Source: Pirellulaceae bacterium
GTDB lineage: Bacteria; Planctomycetota; Planctomycetia; Pirellulales; Pirellulaceae
DNA length: 64,000 bases
Direction of reading: 5' to 3'
Assembly: GCA_026004795.1 (NCBI GenBank)
Contig: BPJV01000008.1
Location: forward strand, 1-64,000
In this document: piece by piece, positions 1,203 through 13,374 of the stretch
Layout: every line of letters begins with the position of its first letter
Position numbering within the stretch: position 1 is the first letter of the stretch
Program-made: the position numbers and the translations under genes
The notes under the pieces: model-generated
Database searches by the model: none
Told to the model about the DNA's origin: nothing
Seen by the model: only the letters and a program-made list of their open reading frames with translations

Positions 1203-4200
1203 ATGGCAAAAAGAAGGACACGGGGATCGACGGCAACCCGACCGGCTCGGCGGCGCTCGCGCAACAACCGACCGCAAGTGCCGTTCCCGTACAAGCTGGT
1301 GCTGAATCAGTGGCTCTTGTCTCTGTTCAACGTCGACCAGCCTCGACAGACTGGCGGAGCATCTGCGCAGTGAGTCCCTGGAGGGGCTCGACGAGAACAA
1401 CGTCCATCGTTTTCACCACGCGCTGACGGCGCACTTTCCCGAACTGACCGAGCCTGCCGACGGAATTGCTGCTGGAATACGATCAGAACATCGTGCGGCA
1501 CACGCTGCAGCTCAATCGAGCCGCGAATCACACGTGGCGAGCAGCCGATCGTCTGGAAGTATTTTCAATACCTGGCCTTGCTGTTCACGGAAATCTATCT
1601 GGACCGGTACTTCCGCGATCCGGACGCGCTGTTGGCGGCCATCAACGAGCAAATCGACAGGTACAACGAAGACAAGCCGGAAGCGGACCAGATCGCGAAG
1701 CTGGATGATTCGGCGGAATCCTGGTCGCAGCTCAACAAGCTCGCGTTCTGGATGGCCACCGGCAGCGGCAAAACCCTGCTGATGCACGCGAACATCCTGC
1801 AGTACCAGCACTATCTGGCCCGGCCGGACAATCATGAAGTGCACCGAGGGCGGAAGCTGAACCGCATTCTGCTGCTCACGCCGAACGAAGGACTGAGCCA
1901 ACAGCACCTGCGAGAGTTCGAGGCGGCCGGAATCGACGCGGAGATTTTTAACAAGGACGGCCGCGGCCTGTTCGCCGGCAAGTCGGTGGAGATCCTTGAA
2001 GTCACCAAACTCAAAGAGGAAATGGGCGACAAGACGGTCGCAATCGACGCCTTCGAGGGAAACAACCTGGTGCTGGTGGACGAAGGGCACCGCGGAACCA
2101 GCGGCGGCCAGGACGGCGCGTGGCTCAAGGCCCGCAACGCGTTGTGCGAAGACGGTTTTTCGTTCGAGTATTCCGCCACGTTTCAACAGGCCGTTTCGGG
2201 CAACGCCGGGCTGACCGATCTGTACGCCAAGAGCATTCTGTTCAATTATTCGTACCGTTACTTCTATGGCGACGGGTTCGGCAAGGACTATCAGATCCTC
2301 AATCTGGACGATGACACGCAGGCGCAGCATCTGGAGCTGTATCTGGTCGCCTGCCTGCTGACGTTCTATCAGCAACAGCGGTTGTATCGCGAACACGAGG
2401 CTGAGTTTCGCCCGTTCAACATCGAAAAGCCGCTGTGGATTTTCGTCGGCGGCAGCGTCACCCAGACGCTCGCCAATCGAGATGCGTCCGACATCGTCGA
2501 GATTCTGAAGTTTCTTGCCCGCTACGTTTCGAATCGCAACGGAAAGCGTTGAGCGAATCGAGCGGGTGTTGAACCAGGGGCTGGTGACGGCCAACGGCAG
2601 AGAACCTGTTTGCCGGCCGCTTTACGTACCTCAACACGACCGGCCTAGACCGCTTCGCAGATTTATGATGACACGCTGGCCACGCTCTTCAACGCTCCCG
2701 GAGGCGGGGGTGCTGTACGTCGAGAATCTGAAGGGAGCGACGGGCGAAGTGGCTCTGCGATTGGGCGCCGAGAATGATGCCTTTGGCGTGATCAACGTGG
2801 GCGATGATTCGAAGCTCGTGAAGCTGTGCGAAGAGCACGGAATGGAGACAGGCGAACGGGAGTTTTCCAGTTCGTTGTTTCATGAAATCAATAAGCCCGA
2901 GTCGACGGTGAACGTGTTGATCGGGTCCAGAAAATTCACGGAGGGGGTGGAGCAGTTGGCGCGTCAGCACGATGGGGCTGATGAACATCGGTCGCGGCGA
3001 GGGTGCCCAAATCATCCAACTTTTCGGACGCGGCGTGCGACTGAAGGGATACCGGATGAGCCTCAAACGGAGCAACCGCACAAGCCTTCCCGAAGGCGTC
3101 CAGCGACCTCGCTTTATCAACCTCCTGGAGACGCTTAGCATTTTTGGTATCCGTGCCGACTACATGGCCGAATTCCGTAAGCATTTGGAAGAAGAAGGAT
3201 TGCCGACGAACGACGACCGGGTAGAGTTCTTGCTCCCTGTCATCAGGAACCTGGGCAAGCGATCGCTGAAAACGATTCGCCTCAAAAAGACGATCAATGG
3301 CGTGAGCACCGAGTTCGGGGATGCGTTTAGGAAGCTCGGCCCTGTGCCTACGGTTCAACGACCGGATCCAGCCCGCGATCCATCGACGGAATACCTGCAG
3401 AGAAACAAGGTAGTGTTGAATTGGTATCCCAAGATTAAGGCGATCAAGTCCGCGGGCATTGGCGGAGACGATTCATCCGAACGCCCCAACCAGGCTCATC
3501 TCACGGCGCAGCATACGGCAATGCTCGATATGGATCGGTTGTACTTCGAGCTGGAGCAATTCAAAGCCGAACGTGGATGGCATAATTTGAACCTGACGCG
3601 CGAAGGGATTTCCGAATTACTTGCCGATGCGAGCTGGTACCATCTTCTGATTCCTGCCGAAGAGATGGCTTTCGATGCGTTCGAGAAAGTGAAGCTGTGG
3701 GAAGAGATCGCCTTGGCACTGTTAAAGAAGTACACCGAGCGATACTACACGTTCCGCAAGAAGGAATGGGAACTACCCCATCTCGAATACCATGACCTGG
3801 AAGAGACCGATCCAAACCTTCTGGGTGCGGGGCAGACGCCCGACGATGCCTACTACCGAATCCTAATCGACCAGTCGCAGGAAGAGATCGTCGCCAAACT
3901 GGAAGAGCTGAGGGGATTGATCGAACGCGGCGAATTCAAACCCTGGGAGTTTCGCACGCTCAAGGCAATCTGGTTCGGCAGCCATCTGTACCAACCGCTA
4001 CTGCACTGCCGGGAACAGGTTGTGGAGATTACTCCGCTGCCACTGAACCAGGGCGAAGCTCGCTTCGTCGAGGATCTCAAGTCGTTTTGCGACCAGAATG
4101 AGGAATTTTTCGAGGACAAAGAGCTGTACTTGCTTCGCAATTTGAGCAAGGGCCGCGGCGTCGGTTTCTTCGAAGCCGGCAACTTTCATCCGGACTTCAT

Positions 4201-4507
4201 CTTGTGGCTGTTGGCCGATGGTCTGCAGCATGTCGTGTTTATCGATCCCAAAGGCATCCGCAACATCGGCCCCGACGATCCGAAGGTGCAGTTCTACCAA
4301 ACGGTCAAAGAGATCGAATCGCGACTTAACGATCCCCAGACCAAACTGCATTCGTTTCTCATCTCCAACACGCCTTCCCACACCATGCGTATGCTTTGGG
4401 GCATAGAAAAAGCCGACATGCAGGCCCGCCACATCGTGTTCCAGGAAGATGAGGGATACGTCCGACAGGTCTTGGAATCCTGCGTGGGCGAGCATCTTCC
4501 CAGCTGA
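1203..4507 (+). pseudogene. DEAD/DEAH helicase-nuclease (type III restriction-like), frameshifted in its first half
   Basis: From ATG 1203 the protein begins with a basic leader and [17 protein letters not shown]. Superfamily-2 motifs follow: Walker A MATGSGKT (~1752-1775), Walker B VDEGH (~2077-2091), SATF (~2173-2184) and motif [11 protein letters not shown] (~3017-3043). The C-terminus has HPDFILW (~4186-4206) and FIDPKG (~4238-4255), spaced like a PD-(D/E)XK nuclease core. Family: helicase-nucleases related to the Res subunit of type III restriction enzymes. The coding sense is continuous only by switching frame near 1340, 1462, 1545, 2530, 2597, 2662, 2700 and 2950; from 2972 to the stop at 4507 it is clean (511 codons). 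Length would be ~1100 aa, normal for the family. No methyltransferase gene is present nearby. It sits 8 bases after the DUF4411 gene. Confidence 0.8.
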
Positions 4508-4632
4508 TCCACTCGGGGTCATTCGATAGGTTTGAAGCAAGTCACGGGTGAGGACAGGCTGTCGGCACGGATCGCAGGGGAGAGAAATCGAGCCCCTAAG
4601 GAAGAACGTAACCGTTCGCCGCTCAGTCGAAA

Positions 4633-4700
4633 GGGCGAGGCTGCTCCCGAGCCGATTCCTTAGCCCGCTTGTCCTGTGCGGCTCAGCGGGAGCCTCGCCC
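4633..4700. repeat. REP-like imperfect palindrome
   Basis: Arms at 4633-4653 and 4680-4700 share the outer 10 bases GGGCGAGGCT/AGCCTCGCCC perfectly and a looser inner part (GCTCCCGAGCC against GGCTCAGCGGGAGC), around a 26-base loop. I recall similar sequence in intergenic regions of Rhodopirellula-like genomes. It lies in the convergent gap between the two helicase genes, so it may also end transcription. Confidence 0.6.
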
Positions 4701-4751
4701 TCCCACAATCGCACCCCGTTGTGTAAGCCGTGAACGACGACGCGTTTGCTT

Positions 4752-4823
4752 ACAAGCACGAAGCGCCAGCGAGTGAGTCGAGGTATTTTCAGGGATAAAC
4801 ACTCGCTGGCGCTTCGTGCTTGT
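4752..4823. repeat. REP-like perfect inverted repeat, 24-nt arms
   Basis: Left arm 4752-4775 and right arm 4800-4823 are exact reverse complements over 24 bases (core GAAGCGCCAGCGAGTG), separated by 24 bases. This is an extragenic palindrome of the kind I recall as dispersed in planctomycete genomes. It lies between two convergent helicase genes and about 50 bases after the element at 4633-4700. Confidence 0.75.
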
Positions 4824-4876
4824 ATTGAAAAACGGGATTCCCTCCACCCTAAAATACTATCTCGGGGCGTGAACGG

Positions 4877-7800
4877 TTACGGAAGAACTGCGTCACCAGG
4901 AGAGATGACATTGAATCCGAAATCTTCGAGGCGCTGCGCAATGCGTTGTGATGGGCGCTGCGGCGCAAAACACGCGTATTTCCCTTGTTCTGTGGCAAAC
5001 CAAAACAGCGGTTGCGCGATGATCTCACCAGATTTCGTAATCAATGGTTCTTGGGAAATCTTGTAGCCGCGCAGCAAGCCTACCAGCCACTTGCGATGTT
5101 CTTCACCAATGATCTCCATCAGGTCAGCAACATCGTCCATCGGACTGCCAGTTTTTTCCACCTTTGGACGATACTCGAGTATGTCCATGCATTCTCCCAG
5201 CACATCGTACAACCGTCGGGCGTGCATGTCGGCTCGGTTTTCCGCGAATAGAACCAACATCGACCTGGCTCGTGTCATCGCCACGTAGAGATTGTTTGCC
5301 AGCACACCGACTTTTTCCGAGACGTACCAGTCAACGCCGGGCACGATCACGATCTCAGCGTCGTAGCCCTTGAACGAGTGAGGTGTTGTTGCCAGGAGCA
5401 CGTCGCCACGGCGCTCGAAGCGGCCTGTCTGCACACTGAGAGTAACGCCAATTTCCGCCATGCGCGGAGCGACTTCTCGCTCAAGCCATCGCTTGATGTT
5501 TTGGCCGTTGTAGAGCAGACAGATGTCTGCCGGATCAACACCTTCAACTTCGATGAGTTGTCGACAGAATTGGCCGATGGCTTGCATTTCCTGGCGAGTG
5601 CTGGTGAACTGCCGAAACGTAGGTTTCGGTCCTTCGATTTGATTGAAACGTATGGTCCACCATTGCGCATCGCCGCGCGCGGTTCGCTCGACCAAACCGC
5701 GGCTGAGTAGTTCTTTATGATCCGCGTCATCCTCCGGTGGCTGCAATCGATAAAGGACGTTCAATGTGAATTCGATAATCGGTTTGGTACTGCGGAAACT
5801 CTCATTCATCACCGTCGAACGCCCGCGCAGGTCCAAGCCGAACTCGGACCACCTGGGCGTACCCCTTCCGTAAATGTTCTGCGCATTGTCGTAGAAAATG
5901 TTGACAGCACGACTGTTCGCGTCGGAGCCATCTACCTGTCGAACCAGCGCCGACAACAGCTTCAGAGTATTGGGGCCCATATCCTGGGCTTCGTCGATGA
6001 ACAAGGCGTCGCATGCCGGTTGTATCTCGTTCGCCGGACGTCGTTCCAAGAATGCCGCCGCTGCGTCGTCATATTCGAAGCGGAAATCGCTAGCCCGTAA
6101 TCCCACCTCGGGCAGCATCCGGTCGAGGATTTCGCGGATGTGAAGCAGGGAAACACGTTCCCACGGAAAGTGCGTTCCTTCGGCCGCTTGTTCCCAGGCT
6201 GTTTCGATCGAATTCGCGATGAGCGCTTGGAGAGAACGATTTGCAAATACGGCCCAAATCCGTGCGTGGGGCTGATCGGAAAAGCGTTGGACGGTCTTCG
6301 CTAGCCAGTGAGCTAGAACGATCGTTTTTCCACTCCCAGCGACGTCTCGGACCAAACGTGGTTTGCCGTCCAATGTCAGCCCACACAACCGCTCCTGTTC
6401 CCTTGACAGGACCGGCCGGAGCAGTTTCCGCGTGGAAATCTGGTAGCCCAATGAGTTCGTGTTGACGGCATACACATTTGCCCCGGTCTCGCGGACCGCC
6501 TCGCGATTCGGCGGCGAGTAGATCTCCCTGGCGGGAACTTGTTCCCAAAAGAGCTTGCGTGCACGCTTCCTCAACACACGGGGCGAAAGAAAGGGCAACA
6601 ACGGGTGCAAATAGGGCTCTTGCATTTCGGCGCGACTGGCCAGAACCAGACAGGCTTCGCGTGCTCGACTCAACGCCACATTCACCAGCCGTTTCCATTC
6701 ATCGTATGGCCAACTGTAGCTTCCCGCGTTGACCGTGTCGAAGATCACTACGTCGGCTTCGGCCCCTTGTTGGCTGTGAACCGTTGAAGCAGACCAGGTG
6801 TGCAGTTCATTCTGTGCCAGATAGACTGCGATACGATGCGCCTGAGCTTTGAATGGTGATATGAACATACCATTACATGAACGCAATTCTGTATCGGTGA
6901 ACAGGCGATCCAAGATGGTCGTTGTAAGGCGGCGCACCCAACTTCGATTTCCCGGGCCTCGCTCGGCTCGAATCGATGGCCAATCACTCGTCTCTTCATC
7001 CAGCACATACCATATCGCGCGTGGTTGATCTTGGAGCACCATCGGCAGGCGGTATTTCCGGTCTCCGACTTCCGGTGCCGTCTCTAATTGGCCAGCGTAC
7101 TGGAAATTCGACACGACATGGCATACGTCGCGGTGCATCCGGTGCTGTTCACGCAGCACGTGAACCCCCACTTCCTCGGACCCGAAATGATCCAGATGAC
7201 TCAAACCGCTCTTGGCTAACCACGTCATCTGATGGGTTGGCAGAACGCGACTGATGCGACTGATCGGGGCAAGCTGCTTCGAATCGCCTACCAATACCAC
7301 ACGGCGAGCCGCCAGGAGAGATAGGGCGGCTGTGGCGGCGCGAGAAATCAATCCGGCTTCGTCAATGAACACCGTCGTGAACGGAGCCAGCCCATGTTCG
7401 ATACTATGTTTCACGGCCTCCGTGGTCAGGAATGAGGTCGCGCGAAACGCTGTTGCGACGACACATCGCACCTCGTCGTCCAGAAAGTTGCGGCGCGCAG
7501 CATCCCGCATCTGCATCCGCAGTTTCTTGATCTCTACACGAATCATTGCCTTTTCGACGGAACTGGTCGTTCTCGCCAGGCTCTGGAGGTGGCTTTCGAT
7601 CCGAGAGAGAAACTCGGTTTCCGTGCCTCGGAGCATGTCCTCCAATCGGTTTTCGGTGAAGACCTTGAACGATGCACCCTTTCCGATTCGCAGCAGCGCA
7701 CCACTTTCTAGGATTTGTGGTGCCACTTCCCTGGCGGCTTTACCCAGAGCGATCGCAGCAGCGTCGGTGGCTCGATTGGTCGTAGAGACGATCAAAATGC

Positions 7801-8530
7801 GCTCGCCGGGATCCACCAGGGACCGCACGGCTTGCTGGCCCATGGTGAACGTCTTCCCGGTACCGGGAGGTCCCCACAGGACACTCCAGGCCTTGGACCA
7901 CCAGCGACTGAGTTCCGGCAGGCCAACATCGCGGTACTCGAGCACGTCCGGGTGGATTCCTCCTTCGCTTGCGCAAAGCCGATCGACGAGGGCCTCTTGG
8001 ATTCGATCAAAGGCGGGTTCGTTGTAGATGGCATGGAGAAACGCCAAAAACTCGAATGGGCGAACAAAGAATGATCCTGTTGTCGGAGGATGTTCAGGAT
8101 CCGCCACGATGACAAAGATGCGCCCGGTCGCATCGTCGACTTCGAGAATCTCTCCCATCCACACGATGGAATCGTCGATCTCAATTTCGTCGTTCCCCTC
8201 GGGAAATCCTTCCGCCGCATCTGCATCAGAACGCGGTAGGTATAAAGGGCGAAAGGCCGTTGCTCCCTCCCAAGTCCAATCAAACTCCACACGGTGGCCA
8301 ACCTGCAGGACGTAGATCGTTCCAATATCACTCTTGGATACTAGGCCTACGCTACGGCAGCGGAGATGCTTCCACTTGACAGAAGCACGATACTCGCGAC
8401 GAACCGCCTCTTGTGCATGCTGCAAGACGTCTCGGCCCGTATCCGGAAAATGCAACCGAATAGGCTGTTCCGCTTGGATGAAGTCCGACTGCAGTGCTTC
8501 CAAGTCGTCATCGCGGCTGAGGCTACTCAT
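4877..8530 (-). CDS. Tandem superfamily-1 helicase fusion (Upf1-like + UvrD-like)
   Basis: A 1217-residue protein with two complete helicase cores. Residues 1-200 form an N-terminal domain that I do not recognise. Core 1 (Upf1/Dna2-like SF1B) has GPPGTGKT at 220-227, DEAG at 390-393, GDSKQLAP at 415-422, REQHRM at 460-465 and VALSRARE around 618-625. Core 2 (UvrD/Rep-like SF1A) has VAGSGKT at 730-736, DEAQD at 846-850, SFRSTKP near 911-917 and VAMTRARS near the C-terminus. A short tail of ~100 residues follows. Both ATPase sites look intact. Such proteins would unwind or translocate on nucleic acid; a role in phage or plasmid defence is inferred from length, architecture and the neighbouring restriction-like helicase-nuclease. 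It is a single-gene unit, convergent with that gene, with no obvious ribosome binding site. The reading frame is undamaged, unlike its neighbour. Confidence 0.85.
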   Translation of the reverse strand: MSSLSRDDDLEALQSDFIQAEQPIRLHFPDTGRDVLQHAQEAVRREYRASVKWKHLRCRSVGLVSKSDIGTIYVLQVGHRVEFDWTWEGATAFRPLYLPRSDADAAEGFPEGNDEIEIDDSIVWMGEILEVDDATGRIFVIVADPEHPPTTGSFFVRPFEFLAFLHAIYNEPAFDRIQEALVDRLCASEGGIHPDVLEYRDVGLPELSRWWSKAWSVLWGPPGTGKTFTMGQQAVRSLVDPGERILIVSTTNRATDAAAIALGKAAREVAPQILESGALLRIGKGASFKVFTENRLEDMLRGTETEFLSRIESHLQSLARTTSSVEKAMIRVEIKKLRMQMRDAARRNFLDDEVRCVVATAFRATSFLTTEAVKHSIEHGLAPFTTVFIDEAGLISRAATAALSLLAARRVVLVGDSKQLAPISRISRVLPTHQMTWLAKSGLSHLDHFGSEEVGVHVLREQHRMHRDVCHVVSNFQYAGQLETAPEVGDRKYRLPMVLQDQPRAIWYVLDEETSDWPSIRAERGPGNRSWVRRLTTTILDRLFTDTELRSCNGMFISPFKAQAHRIAVYLAQNELHTWSASTVHSQQGAEADVVIFDTVNAGSYSWPYDEWKRLVNVALSRAREACLVLASRAEMQEPYLHPLLPFLSPRVLRKRARKLFWEQVPAREIYSPPNREAVRETGANVYAVNTNSLGYQISTRKLLRPVLSREQERLCGLTLDGKPRLVRDVAGSGKTIVLAHWLAKTVQRFSDQPHARIWAVFANRSLQALIANSIETAWEQAAEGTHFPWERVSLLHIREILDRMLPEVGLRASDFRFEYDDAAAAFLERRPANEIQPACDALFIDEAQDMGPNTLKLLSALVRQVDGSDANSRAVNIFYDNAQNIYGRGTPRWSEFGLDLRGRSTVMNESFRSTKPIIEFTLNVLYRLQPPEDDADHKELLSRGLVERTARGDAQWWTIRFNQIEGPKPTFRQFTSTRQEMQAIGQFCRQLIEVEGVDPADICLLYNGQNIKRWLEREVAPRMAEIGVTLSVQTGRFERRGDVLLATTPHSFKGYDAEIVIVPGVDWYVSEKVGVLANNLYVAMTRARSMLVLFAENRADMHARRLYDVLGECMDILEYRPKVEKTGSPMDDVADLMEIIGEEHRKWLVGLLRGYKISQEPLITKSGEIIAQPLFWFATEQGKYACFAPQRPSQRIAQRLEDFGFNVISPGDAVLP

Positions 8531-8777
8531 GTTAAGCGCATTGTGCTAGTAGTCGCCAGTACATGAACACGTGCCTGCAAACAATACCTACCGGGAGTGC
8601 GATAGCCGTGTTCGCTCCGAGCCCTTTGAGCGGTCCAGCAAGCTCGCCGGTCGAGGCTCCAGCGATGCATCGAAGCGCGTGAACGGCGCAGTTGTCAGGC
8701 AATCGGATTTCAACGTCGTTTCGTTCCATGATTGCAATTCATCATAACGAAGATGCAGTGGCGAATGCCGGGATCAG

Positions 8778-9158
8778 ATGGAGGTCTTGCAGCGGGTTAT
8801 GGAGCATGAGATTGTGCATTTGGTGGAGCTGCTGGTATGGGGCGAGTCGCGGTCTGGGGCGGAGCGGTCTGGATCGATTGCCGAGCGGTTCTTCGGACAT
8901 ACGGATCATCGCCATCAACTGCTCCCCCGGGCCGAGCGGGTGCTGGACGCGCAGGGGATCAGGCCGGGGGATTGGGTGGCGTTCGAACATCACGGGCGGG
9001 AACACGTCGGGCGGGTCAACCGGCTGACGCGGCGGGTGACCGTGCTGGTCGAAGACCCGCAAGGCCGGCGGTACAGCGACGGCCGCCGTTACGCCAAGTT
9101 CTACGTGTGGGCCGACCGGATGCGCCCGGCTCCGGCGGCATTGTCAAAAGGGACGTGA
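8778..9158 (+). CDS. SprT-like domain protein, N-terminally truncated
   Basis: The 126-residue product begins directly at the zinc-site helix: MEHEIVHLVELLVWG holds HExxH (H10, E11, H14), followed by FFGHTDHRH and a beta-rich tail GREHVGRVNRLTRRVTVLVEDP ending in GRRYAKFYV. This matches SprT-like metal-dependent proteins, which in planctomycetes normally have another ~100 residues before the HExxH. In the same frame a TAA occurs about 35 bases upstream, and no recognisable N-terminal half exists there. I conclude that the gene lost its 5' part, probably during turnover of the accessory region. The third family motif (SCS after WG) reads SRS here, another sign of relaxed selection. It may be a remnant rather than a working gene. 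Confidence 0.6.
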   Translation: MEVLQRVMEHEIVHLVELLVWGESRSGAERSGSIAERFFGHTDHRHQLLPRAERVLDAQGIRPGDWVAFEHHGREHVGRVNRLTRRVTVLVEDPQGRRYSDGRRYAKFYVWADRMRPAPAALSKGT

Positions 9159-9166
9159 GTGCGGCC

Positions 9167-9231
9167 GACCGGGGCGTAAGCTTCCAGCTTGCGACCGCCG
9201 CAGTTTCACGTTCGTGCCGCGGCGTTTACGC
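9167..9231. repeat. Planctomycete-type intergenic repeat (GGCGTAAGCTTCCAGCTTGCG)
   Basis: Bases 9171-9192 contain GCGTAAGCTTCCAGCTTGC, with an internal 5-bp palindrome AAGCT-TCC-AGCTT, and 9225-9231 (TTTACGC) mirror the start GCGTAAG imperfectly. I recall closely similar short elements between genes in this phylum. It lies just before the PIN toxin/antitoxin pair. Confidence 0.45.
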
Positions 9232-9238
9232 TTATAAT
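9211..9238 (+). promoter_or_regulatory. Possible sigma-70 promoter of the toxin-antitoxin pair
   Basis: TATAAT at 9233-9238 with TTCGTG at 9211-9216, spacer 16 bases, about 65 bases before the antitoxin start. The -10 box is a perfect consensus; the -35 box is weak. Confidence 0.4.
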
Positions 9239-9305
9239 ATAATGGGTTTTACGGGAACATAGCGGTGTTTCCAACGTGGGGTCTGTTACGACAAGGGCTT
9301 GGTTG

Positions 9306-9560
9306 ATGATTCGGATTCATATTTCGGCGGAAATCCATGAAGACCGGCGCGTCGTTTTGCAGTTGCCTGAGGAAACGCCCACCGGCAAAGCGGAACTGAC
9401 GGTGACGATCTCTCCGCAGGGTGCGGCTACCAGTTCCGCCGGTCATTTGCGACAGCATTTCGGCAGCGTACACAGCGGCGATGCCAAATCGGCCGACAAC
9501 GATCGCATCGATGCCGATTTGGCCCGTGCTTACGGCGATTCGCATGACAAGGCAACTTGA
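9306..9560 (+). CDS. Putative antitoxin of a PIN-domain toxin
   Basis: A short 84-residue product starting MIRIHISAEIHEDRRVVLQLPEE, followed by a beta-strand-rich segment and a polar tail. I start it at the third possible start, ATG 9306, because the sequence upstream does not look like protein. The N-terminal RRVVLQLPEETPTGKAEL pattern is shared by small proteins placed directly before PIN toxins. Its stop TGA (9558-9560) overlaps the toxin ATG (9560) by one base, the usual arrangement for co-translated antitoxin and toxin. Function is inferred mainly from this position; I see no clear DNA-binding motif. Confidence 0.6.
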   Translation: MIRIHISAEIHEDRRVVLQLPEETPTGKAELTVTISPQGAATSSAGHLRQHFGSVHSGDAKSADNDRIDADLARAYGDSHDKAT

Positions 9561-9955
9561 TGCTGCTGGACACGTCCGGGCTTTTATGTTGCTTCGATGC
9601 TGACGACGATCGTCATCACGACGCTGTTGCATTCTATAAATCTGCGGCATCGAGGTTGGCGCACAATTATGTCATCGCCGAGTTTGTCGCGCTCGCGACG
9701 GCGCGACGGCTGCCTCCCCAACCTTCACTGGACTTTGCCGCGGCGATTTTCGCGGACGCGGAGGTGGAGGTCGTGTGGGTCGATCAGGCTCTTCACAACG
9801 AGGCGATGACTTTGCTGAAAGCTCAAACGGACAAAAACTATTCGCATTGCGACGCCGTGAGTTTTGTATTGATGCGGCACCGCAAGGTCAACGACGCCCT
9901 GACCACCGACGGACACTTCGAGCAAGCTGGTTTTCGGCGCCTTCTGCCGAGGTGA
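9560..9955 (+). CDS. PIN-domain ribonuclease toxin (VapC-like)
   Basis: The 131-residue protein shows the four acidic PIN positions: D4 in LLDTSG, E41 in VIAEFVAL, D98 in HCDAVSF and D117 in TTDGHFEQAGF. PIN toxins are Mg-dependent RNases that cut tRNA or rRNA when released from their antitoxin. The end FEQAGFRRLLP is the common C-terminus of this subgroup. I choose ATG 9560 rather than TTG 9557 because it makes the TGATG overlap with the upstream antitoxin. The catalytic set is complete, so the pair looks functional. Confidence 0.85.
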   Translation: MLLDTSGLLCCFDADDDRHHDAVAFYKSAASRLAHNYVIAEFVALATARRLPPQPSLDFAAAIFADAEVEVVWVDQALHNEAMTLLKAQTDKNYSHCDAVSFVLMRHRKVNDALTTDGHFEQAGFRRLLPR

Positions 9956-10194
9956 ATTGGAAGCAGCGCGTTTGCAGCAATGCGGTTTCTGGAAGACGTT
10001 TGATCGCTGAGTTTGCAATGACTCAGACGGCATTGATAATCACCGGGGCTGAATTCTTGCGAATTTAGCTACGATGGTGTCATCGGCCAGGCCGGACCTT
10101 GCGGATCAGCGGCCCGAGATCGAACGGCGTCGCGGTCATCGCTTTTGGATGATAAACTTGAAACAGGTCCTTTTTCTCCGGTTAAGGTCAATCT

Positions 10195-10478
10195 ATGGCG
10201 ACGACGCTTGAGAAGATGCTAGTGCAGACTCCCGGTGTGTGCGGGGGCGCATCCGCATTGACGGGACGCGGATTACCGTGCATCGGTTGGCGGTGCTGTA
10301 CAAGCGAGGCCTATCCCCGGAAGAGATCGCAGCGACCTATCCGCATTTGACGCTGGGACAGATCTATGCGGCGCTGGCCTACTATCATGCCAACCGCGTT
10401 CAGATCGAAGCGGAGCAGGCCGCAGATTATACCGAGTACGATCGATTGAAGCAGCAGCAGTATGAGACGGGAGAATGA
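10195..10478 (+). pseudogene. DUF433 protein, copy 1, frameshifted
   Basis: ATG 10195 opens MATTLEKMLVQTPGVCGG, but one base is missing in the G-run near 10240 compared with the intact copy at 12329; the frame then changes to RIRIDGTRITVHRLAVLYKRGLSP and runs to TGA 10478. DUF433 proteins are small helical proteins found as the first gene of DUF433/DUF5615 pairs, where they are thought to be the antitoxin. By eye it is about three-quarters identical to copy 2. The stop overlaps the start of a dead DUF5615 copy by ATGA. Confidence 0.8.
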
Positions 10479-10606
10479 GACTCGTCCGCTAGTACTTCGA
10501 CGAGAACGCCTGCGAACTCGTCGTCATTATGGGTTCGCGGGCACGCGGCGTAGATCTCCTGACGACGCTAGTTTCCGGGCGCACCGGAACGAGCGACGGA
10601 CCATAG
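10475..10606 (+). pseudogene. DUF5615 PIN-like remnant, copy 1
   Basis: ATG 10475 overlaps the end of the DUF433 copy. The sequence aligns base by base with the intact gene at 12610, but codon 6 is TAG (10490-10492) where the other copy has TTG, and similarity ends after SGRTGTSD near 10597, with a further stop at 10604-10606. The segment YFDENACEL followed by RARGVDLLTTLVSGR is clearly the N-terminal third of the PIN-like protein. The toxin partner of this copy is therefore dead. Confidence 0.8.
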
Positions 10607-10670
10607 CAAGAACAACCGCGAAACTCTACCTCAGCCAGTGGCTCGAAAACTGGGCACCACCTCATCCAGG

Positions 10671-10856
10671 CTACCGATCTCCCACGTGGTCTTGCGGAGA
10701 TTGTTTTTCCAGCTCATCGATTTGACGGCCGATTTCTTCGGCCTCGGCACGCGTCTGGTCGCTCTTCTTCCGGTTCACGGTCGAAAAGTCGTACGACTCG
10801 TGCATGAGCTTGTTGTACTTTGCTTGCAGCTTGGTTTTGCGACTTCTTCCAAACAT
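10671..10856 (-). CDS. DUF6435 (Lacal_2735-type) small protein
   Basis: A 61-residue protein starting MFGRSRKTKLQAKYNKLMHES, then TVNRKKSDQTRAEAEEIGRQIDELEKQ. This is the typical short, charged, coiled-coil-like Lacal_2735 family, found in many marine bacteria. The function is unknown. It stands alone on the minus strand next to the dead DUF5615 copy. Confidence 0.75.
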   Translation of the reverse strand: MFGRSRKTKLQAKYNKLMHESYDFSTVNRKKSDQTRAEAEEIGRQIDELEKQSPQDHVGDR

Positions 10857-10920
10857 CGGTGTCGGTCTACGTCAGGCGTTGTTGAAGGGGTGGAGGGGTT
10901 GGGGGCGAGACCGTGAAAAT

Positions 10921-11316
10921 TCAGTTGACCTCACAAGCTCCCGTGCTGCATCGTCCCGTTAATCGGAGTCGGTTCTTCGCAAAGATTCGGTAGCCGAGAT
11001 CGAGTACGAAAGAAACGCCGGGCAGTCGTGCGAGTGCTACGAGCGGACCAAGCCCGACGGCAGCATACAAACGACGAAACACTTCGACGCCAGTGATCCA
11101 AGATCCATCGGGCAATCTTCCTTGGATCTCCGCCATGAACTCCTGCTTCGACTTGCCGTAGTTCGATGGACGAAACGTGGGATCGGCGATGTCCGTGAAA
11201 CGAATGTTCTTCTTGCGATCCATCCAGCGAAGCATCCTGATTTCACGCAGGCAAAGCGGACATTCCCCGTCATAGAAGACTTCAACTTGCCATTCGTCGC
11301 CTGTTGGTTCGCTCAT
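10921..11316 (-). CDS. Thiol-disulfide oxidoreductase, DCC family (DUF393)
   Basis: 131 residues. The N-terminal motif YDGECPLC gives DGxCPLC, with C19 and C22, the redox pair that names the DCC family; [17 protein letters not shown] follows. The middle part has [18 protein letters not shown], common to the family. It is predicted to be a cytoplasmic thioredoxin-fold-like protein of uncertain substrate. The ATG overlaps the stop of the SOUL gene by four bases, so the two are one transcription unit on the minus strand. A C-terminal CSTGACEVN adds two more cysteines. Confidence 0.85.
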
Positions 11317-11933
11317 GATTCAGCTTCGGTGGTAGAAGTGGAGATGAGCCGAATCAAAACCTCGTTTCGACGCAGTGGCCCCGGCGTGAAAGGCGGATCG
11401 TAGCCGGCCGCTTCCGCTGTCGATTCACCCTCGAGTCCTCGCGACTGCATCCACTCGCGAAGTTTCGCTTCCTGCTCTTTGGCAACCCGCGAGTCGAGTC
11501 GGCCAGAGAACCGAATCACGGCGAAACGACCGCTCTCACGTTTGCGGATCTTCACACCACCGTCCTTCGGTTCGGGCACGCCCTCCGCGGCGACTTCCGT
11601 TGGCATCACGAAACCCATCGACACGTCCGACTTTCCAACTTCGCCTTCCATGAACACCGGAGTTGTCATGGCGATCTTTTGCTCGCCTTCGTTCGCTCCG
11701 CTGATGTACTGGAATAGCCGCATGAAGCTACCATCGCGACCCTGCGAGTCCATTTTGGAATCGGTGGTTACCAGCATCAGGTCCGGGTATTCGCGGACTT
11801 CGAACCTGCCGTCGGACTCGATCACTTTATATTGAGCGGACTCGTACCCCGCTCGAGTGGCCATCGTCAGTGCTAGCGTCCCCACCAAAGCGCCCCCGAG
11901 TAATCCCCTGCGAAATATCATTGCTCGTTTCAT
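11313..11933 (-). CDS. SOUL family heme-binding protein, exported
   Basis: The 206-residue protein starts [35 protein letters not shown], a signal peptide or membrane anchor with an RR near the front, followed by a SOUL domain: [47 protein letters not shown] and [15 protein letters not shown] proteins bind heme or hydrophobic ligands; bacterial roles are poorly defined. I start at ATG 11933, preceded on the coding strand by GGAG and GAAGG, rather than at more upstream starts that lack a signal sequence. It is the first gene of the SOUL-DCC operon, with a 4-base overlap to the next. Confidence 0.85.
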
Positions 11934-12093
11934 CCTTCTCGACTCCTTTATGTTCATGAATCCCTGAACCATCATAGAGACGCGGCAAGTGGCGCCTGTG
12001 CTACCACTGACATACCGGGAAATCCACTGGCCCCGAGACGGTCCCACCTGCTCAATCGCTCGACGGGTGTCGGGAGCCTTGATGTCTAGGCAA

Positions 12094-12171
12094 CGGTGGC
12101 GGAGCGGCGCGTGTTAACTTTGGGGGACATGTTAAAGCGGAGAGCGTGAGAGTTTGAAAGCGTTGAGGGCG
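12094..12171. repeat. 78-bp direct repeat, left copy
   Basis: It aligns without gaps to 13051-13128. Shared blocks are CGGTGGCGGA, GTTAACTTTGGGG, GAGAGCGnGAGAGTTTGA and GTTGnGGGCG; about three-quarters of the bases match by eye. The two copies flank the intact DUF433/DUF5615 pair in the same orientation. Confidence 0.75.
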
Positions 12172-12328
12172 ATTTATTTAGGCTAAACCAAGATACACCG
12201 AGGCCCCAAGACCCGCGGCCCTGGTCGAACTTCGGCGCCGCGGCACCCAGGTGCGCCGTTCTGAGTCGCAATCCTCGTCTTGCGATGGTAGACTTAGATA
12301 ATACTTTTTCTTTCGTAGAGGCAATGCC

Positions 12329-12613
12329 ATGGCGACAATGCTTGACAAGCTGCTAGTGCAGACGCCCGGTATTTGCGGGGGACGCATCCGGATCGAGGGG
12401 ACGCGGATCACCGTTCACCGGTTGGTCGTGATGTACAAGCAAGGCCTATCGCCGGAAGAGATCGCAGCGACGTATCCGCATTTGTCGCTCGGGCAAATCT
12501 ATGCCGCGTTGGCGTACTACCATTCCAATCGTGACGAAGTCGAAGCAGAACTGGCCGCGGATGATGCCGAGTACGACCGATTAAAGCGGCAGCGACAGGG
12601 AACGGGAGGATGA
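12329..12613 (+). CDS. DUF433 protein, copy 2 (putative antitoxin)
   Basis: 94 residues: MATMLDKLLVQTPGICGGRI, then IEGTRITVHRLVVMYKQGLSPEEIAATYP and LGQIYAALAYYH. The SPEEIAATYPHL segment forms the helix-turn-helix-like part of DUF433. Such proteins precede DUF5615 genes and are considered antitoxins. ATG 12329 is preceded by AGAGG. Its stop overlaps the next ATG (ATGA at 12610-12613). It is intact, unlike the copy at 10195, which lacks one base in the G-run. Confidence 0.85.
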   Translation: MATMLDKLLVQTPGICGGRIRIEGTRITVHRLVVMYKQGLSPEEIAATYPHLSLGQIYAALAYYHSNRDEVEAELAADDAEYDRLKRQRQGTGG

Positions 12614-12960
12614 GCCCGGTCCGCTTGTACGTCGACGAAGACGCTTGCGAACTTGCCGTCATCATGGGCTTGCGGGCACGCGGCGTAGATCTCCTAACGA
12701 CGCTAGAATCTGGTCGCGTTGGAGCGAGCGATGAGGATCAACTTGCGTTTGCAGCCATCGAGCAGCGAACGCTGTACACGTTCAACATACGCGACTTCGC
12801 GCGGTTACATTGGGACTGGCTTCAACGGGGAAGCGATCATTCTGGCATCGTCGTAATTCACGACCAACGCTATTCTGTCGGCGAGAAGATCCGTCTCCTG
12901 TCAGGCTTTGTCGCCTCAAGGACGGCGGATGAAATGGTCAATCGCATGGAGTTTCTCTGA
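12610..12960 (+). CDS. DUF5615 PIN-like protein (putative toxin)
   Basis: 116 residues with the PIN-like acidic sites VDED (D9, E10, D11), SDEDQL (D41-D43) and FNIRDFARLH (N59, D62). DUF5615 belongs to the Mut7-C/PIN-like RNases, and the pair with DUF433 behaves like a type II toxin-antitoxin module (family knowledge; activity is inferred). All key residues are present. It is translationally coupled to the upstream gene, and the pair is flanked by 78-bp direct repeats. Confidence 0.8.
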   Translation: MSPVRLYVDEDACELAVIMGLRARGVDLLTTLESGRVGASDEDQLAFAAIEQRTLYTFNIRDFARLHWDWLQRGSDHSGIVVIHDQRYSVGEKIRLLSGFVASRTADEMVNRMEFL

Positions 12961-13050
12961 ACGGTTGCGCGTGGGCAGGATGCTGGCGGATGGAGTGACG
13001 AAGGAATGGAGCCGCCGTCCGGTTGAGGACTGTGCAGACTTGTCTCGCGG

Positions 13051-13128
13051 CGGTGGCGGAGGAATGGTTGTTAACTTTGGGGTAGATGTGAACGCCGAGA
13101 GCGCGAGAGTTTGAGGGGGTTGGGGGCG
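13051..13128. repeat. 78-bp direct repeat, right copy
   Basis: Second copy of the repeat at 12094-12171, same orientation, collinear with no gaps. It lies about 90 bases after the DUF5615 gene and about 170 bases before tRNA-Asn. No coding potential is convincing in either copy. Confidence 0.75.
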
Positions 13129-13301
13129 TTTTTGGGTGCCAGCGGGGGCAATGCTTCTCGGAATCGAAAACTCTCGGCCGATGGGGGTGGCTGGCCGAGC
13201 CAACGATTTCCAGCGTAAAAAACAAAACGCCGAGGGCATCACCCCTCGGCGTCGTTTGGCTACTCATACTCCCCAAGCCACCTCACGCTCAGGAAGATCA
13301 G

Positions 13302-13374
13302 CTCCTCCGGTAGGACTCGAACCTACGACCCGGCGGTTAACAGCCGCCTGCTCTACCAACTGAGCTACAGAGGA
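13302..13374 (-). tRNA. tRNA-Asn (GTT)
   Basis: On the minus strand a full cloverleaf is visible: acceptor TCCTCTG/CGGAGGA with discriminator G, D-arm GCTCAGTTGGTAGAGC, anticodon loop CTGTTAA (anticodon GTT), and T-arm GTAGG-TTCGAGT-CCTAC. No CCA is encoded. Its 3' end (13302) faces the accessory region on the left. Confidence 0.95.

Follow-up and report, generated by a model that had tools for sequence, protein, structure and literature searches.

A fused two-motor superfamily 1 helicase of a Pirellulaceae bacterium and its possible role beside restriction-type defences

Architecture of the fused helicase

The window, a 64,000-nucleotide stretch at the start of contig BPJV01000008.1 of a Pirellulaceae bacterium (assembly GCA_026004795.1), carries a minus-strand gene in which two superfamily 1 (SF1) helicase motors, one UPF1-like and one UvrD-like, are joined in a single chain. 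A preliminary description, made from the sequence, had proposed two complete and different SF1 motors with intact Walker A and B motifs, and this is borne out: the 18 motif residues checked across both motors are identical in 33/33 rows of an alignment of relatives chosen for being full-length. The gene and its parts are as follows.

4877..8530, minus strand (runs 8530 to 4877): two-motor SF1 helicase gene, 1217 amino acids
7892..8446, minus strand: UPF1-type barrel and stalk helices, residues ~29-213, with strands and helices in the predicted model, within the UPF1/IGHMBP2 structural alignments
6581..7891, minus strand: N-terminal motor, UPF1-like (SF1B type), residues 214-650, from Pfam, PDB sequence and structure matches and motif residues
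6419..6580, minus strand: inter-motor linker region, residues 651-704, partly of low confidence
5180..6418, minus strand: C-terminal motor, UvrD-like (SF1A type), residues 705-1117, from Pfam, PADLOC and structure matches and motif residues
4880..5143, minus strand: C-terminal module, residues 1130-1217, with a weak PD-(D/E)XK-like fold and without a conserved catalytic set

In Pfam and PADLOC the UPF1-like match spans about residues 214-632 and the UvrD-like match about 708-1111, the PADLOC and NCBIfam rows each covering one half of the chain or the other, separately. In structure comparisons, human UPF1/IGHMBP2 match residues ~29-667, N-terminal barrel included, and UvrD matches residues ~705-1120. 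The structure prediction that the preliminary description had called for resolves residues ~29-213 into a barrel and stalk helices, named as in UPF1 structures. This 1B barrel and stalk precede the first RecA-like domain of the N-terminal motor, the arrangement of UPF1-like SF1B helicases. The solved chains closest in sequence to the first half are IGHMBP2, DNA2, UPF1/NAM7 and SEN1/SETX-type, and the NCBIfam matches of that half, to PLuB_AAA and the IGHMBP2 family, both fall under the curated cut-offs.

The linker shows a predicted local distance difference test score (pLDDT) <50 at model residues 653-671 and varies in length in the alignment of relatives. One related locus (L042, 3170-5539) encodes the N-terminal motor alone (residues 2-668), ending near the inter-motor linker, as either a stand-alone variant or a truncation. 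The UvrD alignment of the C-terminal motor spans 354 residues of the 650-residue UvrD chain, the large 1B and 2B subdomains being covered only as part of the whole-motor comparison. Its motif III reads mostly FYDNAQN in the 33 full-length rows, the usual SF1A form being GDxxQ. The structure matches of this motor include HelD, SLFN, AddA, AddB and AdnAB chains, with UvrD scoring above HelD and SLFN.

The C-terminal ~85 residues weakly resemble the PD-(D/E)XK nuclease fold. The module is missing from 16/33 rows, mostly of the Rhodopirellula-type branch, and across 19 rows a single acidic residue of it is invariant and an ExK lysine is not conserved. A profile search (A5) against PDB sequences returned SET/NAP1 and designed-protein rows at E 0.05 or worse, which we do not believe. 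No nuclease family appears in the Pfam scan of the chain, in which the preliminary description had seen no nuclease domain either. The chain is best read as not a self-contained nuclease, and because it lacks a conserved nuclease site its likely role is that of a motor for separate effectors.

UPF1/IGHMBP2 (SMUBP2) chains of the SF1B group stop after one motor; the present chain continues into a second. The C-terminal motor is shorter than in the UvrD/PcrA/Rep SF1A group, GajB and the NERD+UvrD helicases (354 residues aligned of 650), and the chain differs further from the NERD+UvrD defence helicases in giving no NERD match in Pfam. Gabija is set apart in that no OLD-type family is seen among the 19 other window open reading frames (ORFs) given to Pfam, and no GajA-like gene was named beside the window gene. 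Mokosh MkoA provides the best PADLOC match of the N-terminal half (4.8e-44), covering only its helicase part (profile 635-1072 of 1112), and Pfam finds no kinase or PLD match in the chain or in these 19 ORFs. The AddA, AddB and AdnAB chains among the C-motor structure matches recall RecBCD, AddAB and AdnAB, in which two SF1 motors, each on its own chain, cooperate alongside an active nuclease; here there is one chain without conserved nuclease residues.

CnuH resembles MkoA and the present protein as a UPF1-like SF1 helicase in a defence setting; it belongs to the CoCoNuTs, systems predicted to target RNA, and the part of that paper covered describes no second SF1 motor for it (PMC11090510). 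ARMADA type II combines different helicase classes, GajB-like included, in one defence operon, where the helicases are separate genes; its main text, as far as covered, does not name UPF1 and uses 'uvrd' and 'sf1' once each (PMC12458937). Literature searches that took in parts of the ARMADA and CoCoNuT papers, without supplements, returned no description of an SF1B-SF1A fusion.

Conservation and distribution of the fusion

At the residues checked, all 33 rows keep the full motif set of the N-terminal motor, with Walker A/B, Q and arginine motifs, and the full SF1A set of the C-terminal motor. Neither core is degenerate at these residues, an always degenerate core being what the preliminary description had named as grounds for abandoning its reading. 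Pairwise identities of the two halves correlate among the full-length rows (r = 0.945). Because the motif residues are identical in every row and the halves have diverged in step, the fusion is old and maintained. Between the window copy and a second copy on contig C10 of the same genome, synonymous divergence (dS) is 0.119 and nonsynonymous divergence (dN) 0.023, giving dN/dS 0.19.

The fusion occurs in records labelled Planctomycetes, Riflebacteria, Chloroflexi, Nitrospirae, Myxococcales and proteobacterium, the labels being record titles, mostly of metagenome bins. A quick LG+G4 tree of 39 rows, some of its branches long and unsure, pairs the window and C10 copies and joins them to seven mostly Pirellulaceae-type rows. 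Outside the two main planctomycete groups lie the rows labelled Chloroflexi, Nitrospirae, Riflebacteria, Myxococcales and proteobacterium, and with them a few from planctomycetes.

The helicase is patchily distributed and rare in its phylum. A scan of genome contigs gives 51 loci, one of which (L059) is a short UvrD match only. Among related genomes, 9/40 including its own (G000), or 8/39 others, match at 1e-50, some through partial genes; in the phylum sample the count at 1e-100, with the two best candidates scored per genome, is 5/294 including its own, or 4/293 others. Genomes G277 and G340 also hold two copies each. Some copies are damaged: L050 and L056 are C-terminal parts only, L055 lacks the middle, L058 is fragmentary, and frame changes occur in L024, L040 and L038.

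No tblastn match is found among 50,697 phage records. Matches occur in 41 plasmid records, all at <60% identity and none spanning 80% of the query, with query coverage at most 38% among the 20 records listed, and at no fewer than 52 IMG/VR loci, all of them short UvrD-type pieces among the matches listed. We reject a phage origin on the strength of this lack of phage-record matches and of plasmid and IMG/VR matches that are only partial or short.

Gene neighbours and proposed function

The neighbourhood survey suggested in the preliminary description covers 58 loci with a recognisable helicase, among them the C10 copy; of the 60 sources, L046 dropped out for want of an ORF above the threshold and L132 because it duplicates L057. 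ORFs were listed around each locus and part of the neighbours named. Defence genes adjoin the helicase or lie near it at 11/58 loci or more, a minimum and not a rate. The defence context is real but uneven.

The tightest arrangement is seen at L032, where the helicase lies inside a BREX operon, BrxC ending ~30 bp before and PglX starting ~30 bp after its ORF, with BrxL 7.7 kb further on; no BREX gene is seen in the window, which begins at the contig end. HmaC (1.7e-127) lies ~24 bp upstream at L039. At L018 an Mrr_cat gene (1.1e-19) lies ~46 bp upstream and a 3'-5' exonuclease (DNA_pol_A_exo1, 5.3e-33) follows ~19 bp downstream, accompanied by a DpdE/DrmD-like gene (1.9e-213) and an MZB helicase. 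An AAA_15 ATPase (9.8e-13), which we read as OLD-type, sits directly upstream at L022. At L130, SNF2 and BrxL (1.5e-285) lie ~3 kb and ~5 kb from the helicase.

A DrmD-like SNF2 gene is divergent from an Xre-type helix-turn-helix (HTH) gene and the helicase at L053 (DrmD match 1e-225; helicase cut by the contig end), L070 (2.8e-210) and L012 (5.6e-101 to the DrmD of L070), and as a fragment at L038 (2.8e-12 to the same gene). Of a DISARM set, defined by DrmA and DrmB with a methylase, the tracing covered just this DrmD-like gene, at L053 and L070. SNF2 genes lie within 5 kb of 2/14 helicase copies of known position, against 0.09 expected (P = 0.004), in a post hoc test that was chosen after the association had been seen and that takes in 37/57 SNF2 matches, from the 11/16 genomes with a known helicase position. 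At L128 the HTH gene and helicase are divergent from a UvrD/GajB-like helicase, an N6_N4 methylase (1.2e-28) and a ResIII match that is weak and under the cut-off (7.6e-4). Regulators of a single HTH_31/HTH_3-type family are present at seven loci (L070, L038, L053, L022, L128, L045 and L012) and adjoin the helicase at five of them, L022 and L045 being the exceptions.

The window itself is counted among the 11 loci for its type III restriction (Res) gene parts; the ORFs scanned up to the contig end include no methylase partner.

1578..2552, plus strand: type III Res helicase part, Pfam ResIII 9.6e-12
2972..4507, plus strand: type III Res C-terminal part, PADLOC REase_III 6.9e-83, profile 623-1118 of 1154

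Some loose names were not counted: DpdF on L017, a gene that PsyrT matches too and that we take to be RecQ-like; PD-T4-6 kinase on L131; and BrxHI/DruE on L036, where Pfam gives an MrfA/HRQ1-like helicase.

We tentatively favour, at a little under an even chance, an accessory, horizontally acquired two-motor DNA ATPase (SF1B plus SF1A) serving restriction-type defences, its motors cooperating on opposite strands. UPF1-like SF1B enzymes move 5'-3' and UvrD-like SF1A enzymes 3'-5', and by family resemblance the N-terminal and C-terminal motors would be expected to follow suit. The protein may load where phage DNA, invading or replicating, has an end, a gap or a fork. With these opposite polarities, motors pulling on opposite strands would advance the same way along the duplex, unwinding it, much as RecD and RecB track opposite strands of one duplex in one direction. 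Single strands could then be exposed to, or proteins cleared for, a separate partner such as an Mrr-type nuclease or a BREX, Hma or DrmD-type module.

A broader proposal, possible though doubtful, is a single-chain bipolar helicase whose SF1B and SF1A motors would jointly unwind invading DNA in a processive way, doing within one protein what the motor pair of RecBCD does, and which BREX, Hma, DrmD-type and Mrr-type defences of different phyla would use as an exchangeable module. Opposite expected polarities on one chain would make a RecBCD-type division of labour dissectable by point mutations in a single protein. Should the defence link hold, several unrelated restriction-type systems would share an accessory motor that catalogues match one half at a time.

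Several observations weigh against the accessory defence motor. Ordinary genes directly adjoin the helicase at six or more loci: a GH9 cellulase (L009), carB (L031), an FMN dehydrogenase (L036), an ABC permease (L037), an MFS gene (L024) and a radical SAM gene (L026). PADLOC families number 86 in the 95 nearest genes and 85 in 95 distant genes (1e-20), showing no distance effect; the near set takes the first gene of at least 130 amino acids per side within 2.5 kb, leaving out one gene of >1600 amino acids and two of the duplicate locus, the far set was drawn from 192 genes, and the tallies, of 25 families shown each, are pooled over loci. As the near and far counts are equal, we claim no general defence enrichment. 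N6_Mtase occurs in 13/16 genomes, and no helicase copy of known position has one next to it. Polarity and activity are predicted solely from family resemblance, the chain has no nuclease active site, and the type III neighbour in the window looks broken, its two parts lying in different frames with the second convergent with the helicase. The single-gene anti-invader system first suggested is partly supported: defence genes lie beside or near the helicase at 11 or more loci, and an accessory motor is the preferred reading. A recurrent gene directly downstream at six loci (L011, L022, L026, L045, L050 and L070), with a weak alpha/beta hydrolase match in the two members scanned and matching no known defence gene, does not bear on the defence question either way.

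An accessory helicase for DNA repair or replication, outside defence and gained and lost like many accessory genes, would fit the six ordinary neighbourhoods, the flat PADLOC comparison and the MrfA/HRQ1-like helicase downstream in L036, and both motor families include repair enzymes. We judge it rather unlikely: the helicase is rare and patchy, copies are decaying at several loci, and BrxC/PglX, HmaC and Mrr are tight neighbours in distant lineages.

An RNA- or transcription-directed defence, in which the UPF1-like motor would track phage RNA while the UvrD-like motor strips RNA polymerase or R-loops, appears quite improbable. It draws on the solved relatives of the N-terminal motor, several of which are RNA helicases, on the HelD and SLFN rows of the C-terminal motor, on the MkoA match, and on CnuH of the predicted RNA-targeting CoCoNuTs (PMC11090510, in part). 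UvrD nevertheless outscores HelD and SLFN, and the neighbouring partners are DNA systems (BREX, Mrr, methylase).

The duplicated segment around the helicase gene

The helicase lies within a segment common to two contigs of the genome.

4491..13305, no strand: segment shared by the window and contig C10, 89-95% identical
13301..13374, minus strand: tRNA-Asn (gtt), its 3' end at the right border of the shared segment

The duplicated ~9 kb segment, matched in blocks 4491-4607, 4878-9193, 10006-12011 and 13055-13305 and with its second copy at G000:C10 (L006), holds the helicase, a SOUL heme-binding gene and a DCC1-like gene, the inserts differing between copies. The final 232 bp of the segment are found again at a third place, on contig C4 (710754-710985, 96% identity), and C10 and C4 share more sequence past the right border, which looks like an island border. 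An empty tRNA-Asn site was not found, the genus search for the flank giving no long colinear match.

A gene that helps to transfer or maintain the mobile island itself, the defence genes travelling along with it, would suit a segment found at two places, one ending at the tRNA-Asn 3' end, and its right end at a third. It is very unlikely given the lack of any phage-record match, plasmid matches of only half-length, IMG/VR matches that are short UvrD-type pieces among those listed, and the absence of an integrase from the named neighbours. The C10 helicase, ~95% identical, is frame-broken, two frames meeting near residue 402; a chance fusion, pseudogene or assembly artefact, which this might suggest, has next to no chance and is already refuted for the family by the fusion and both active sites kept in 33/33 chosen full-length relatives and by the dN/dS of 0.19.

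For two large ORFs on C4, no PDB relative appears at 1e-5. L143 (G000:C4, 12244-13344), which adjoins the segment end's third copy, resembles by eye the N-terminal portion of a type I restriction R subunit. Promoter-like sites are fewer than the shuffled mean, and terminator-like sites lie ~1 standard deviation above it. The stretches 9557-9955 and 12329-12960, not matched in register by the C10 copy, hold a PIN-domain ORF and a DUF433/DUF5615 pair, small modules resembling toxin-antitoxin systems. Immediately beyond the stop codon of the helicase, a dispersed repeat of ~270 bp (4608-4880) with internal inverted parts has the look of a miniature inverted-repeat transposable element; absent from the equivalent C10 spot, it matches >30 other stretches of the genome, often only over a short or partial length.

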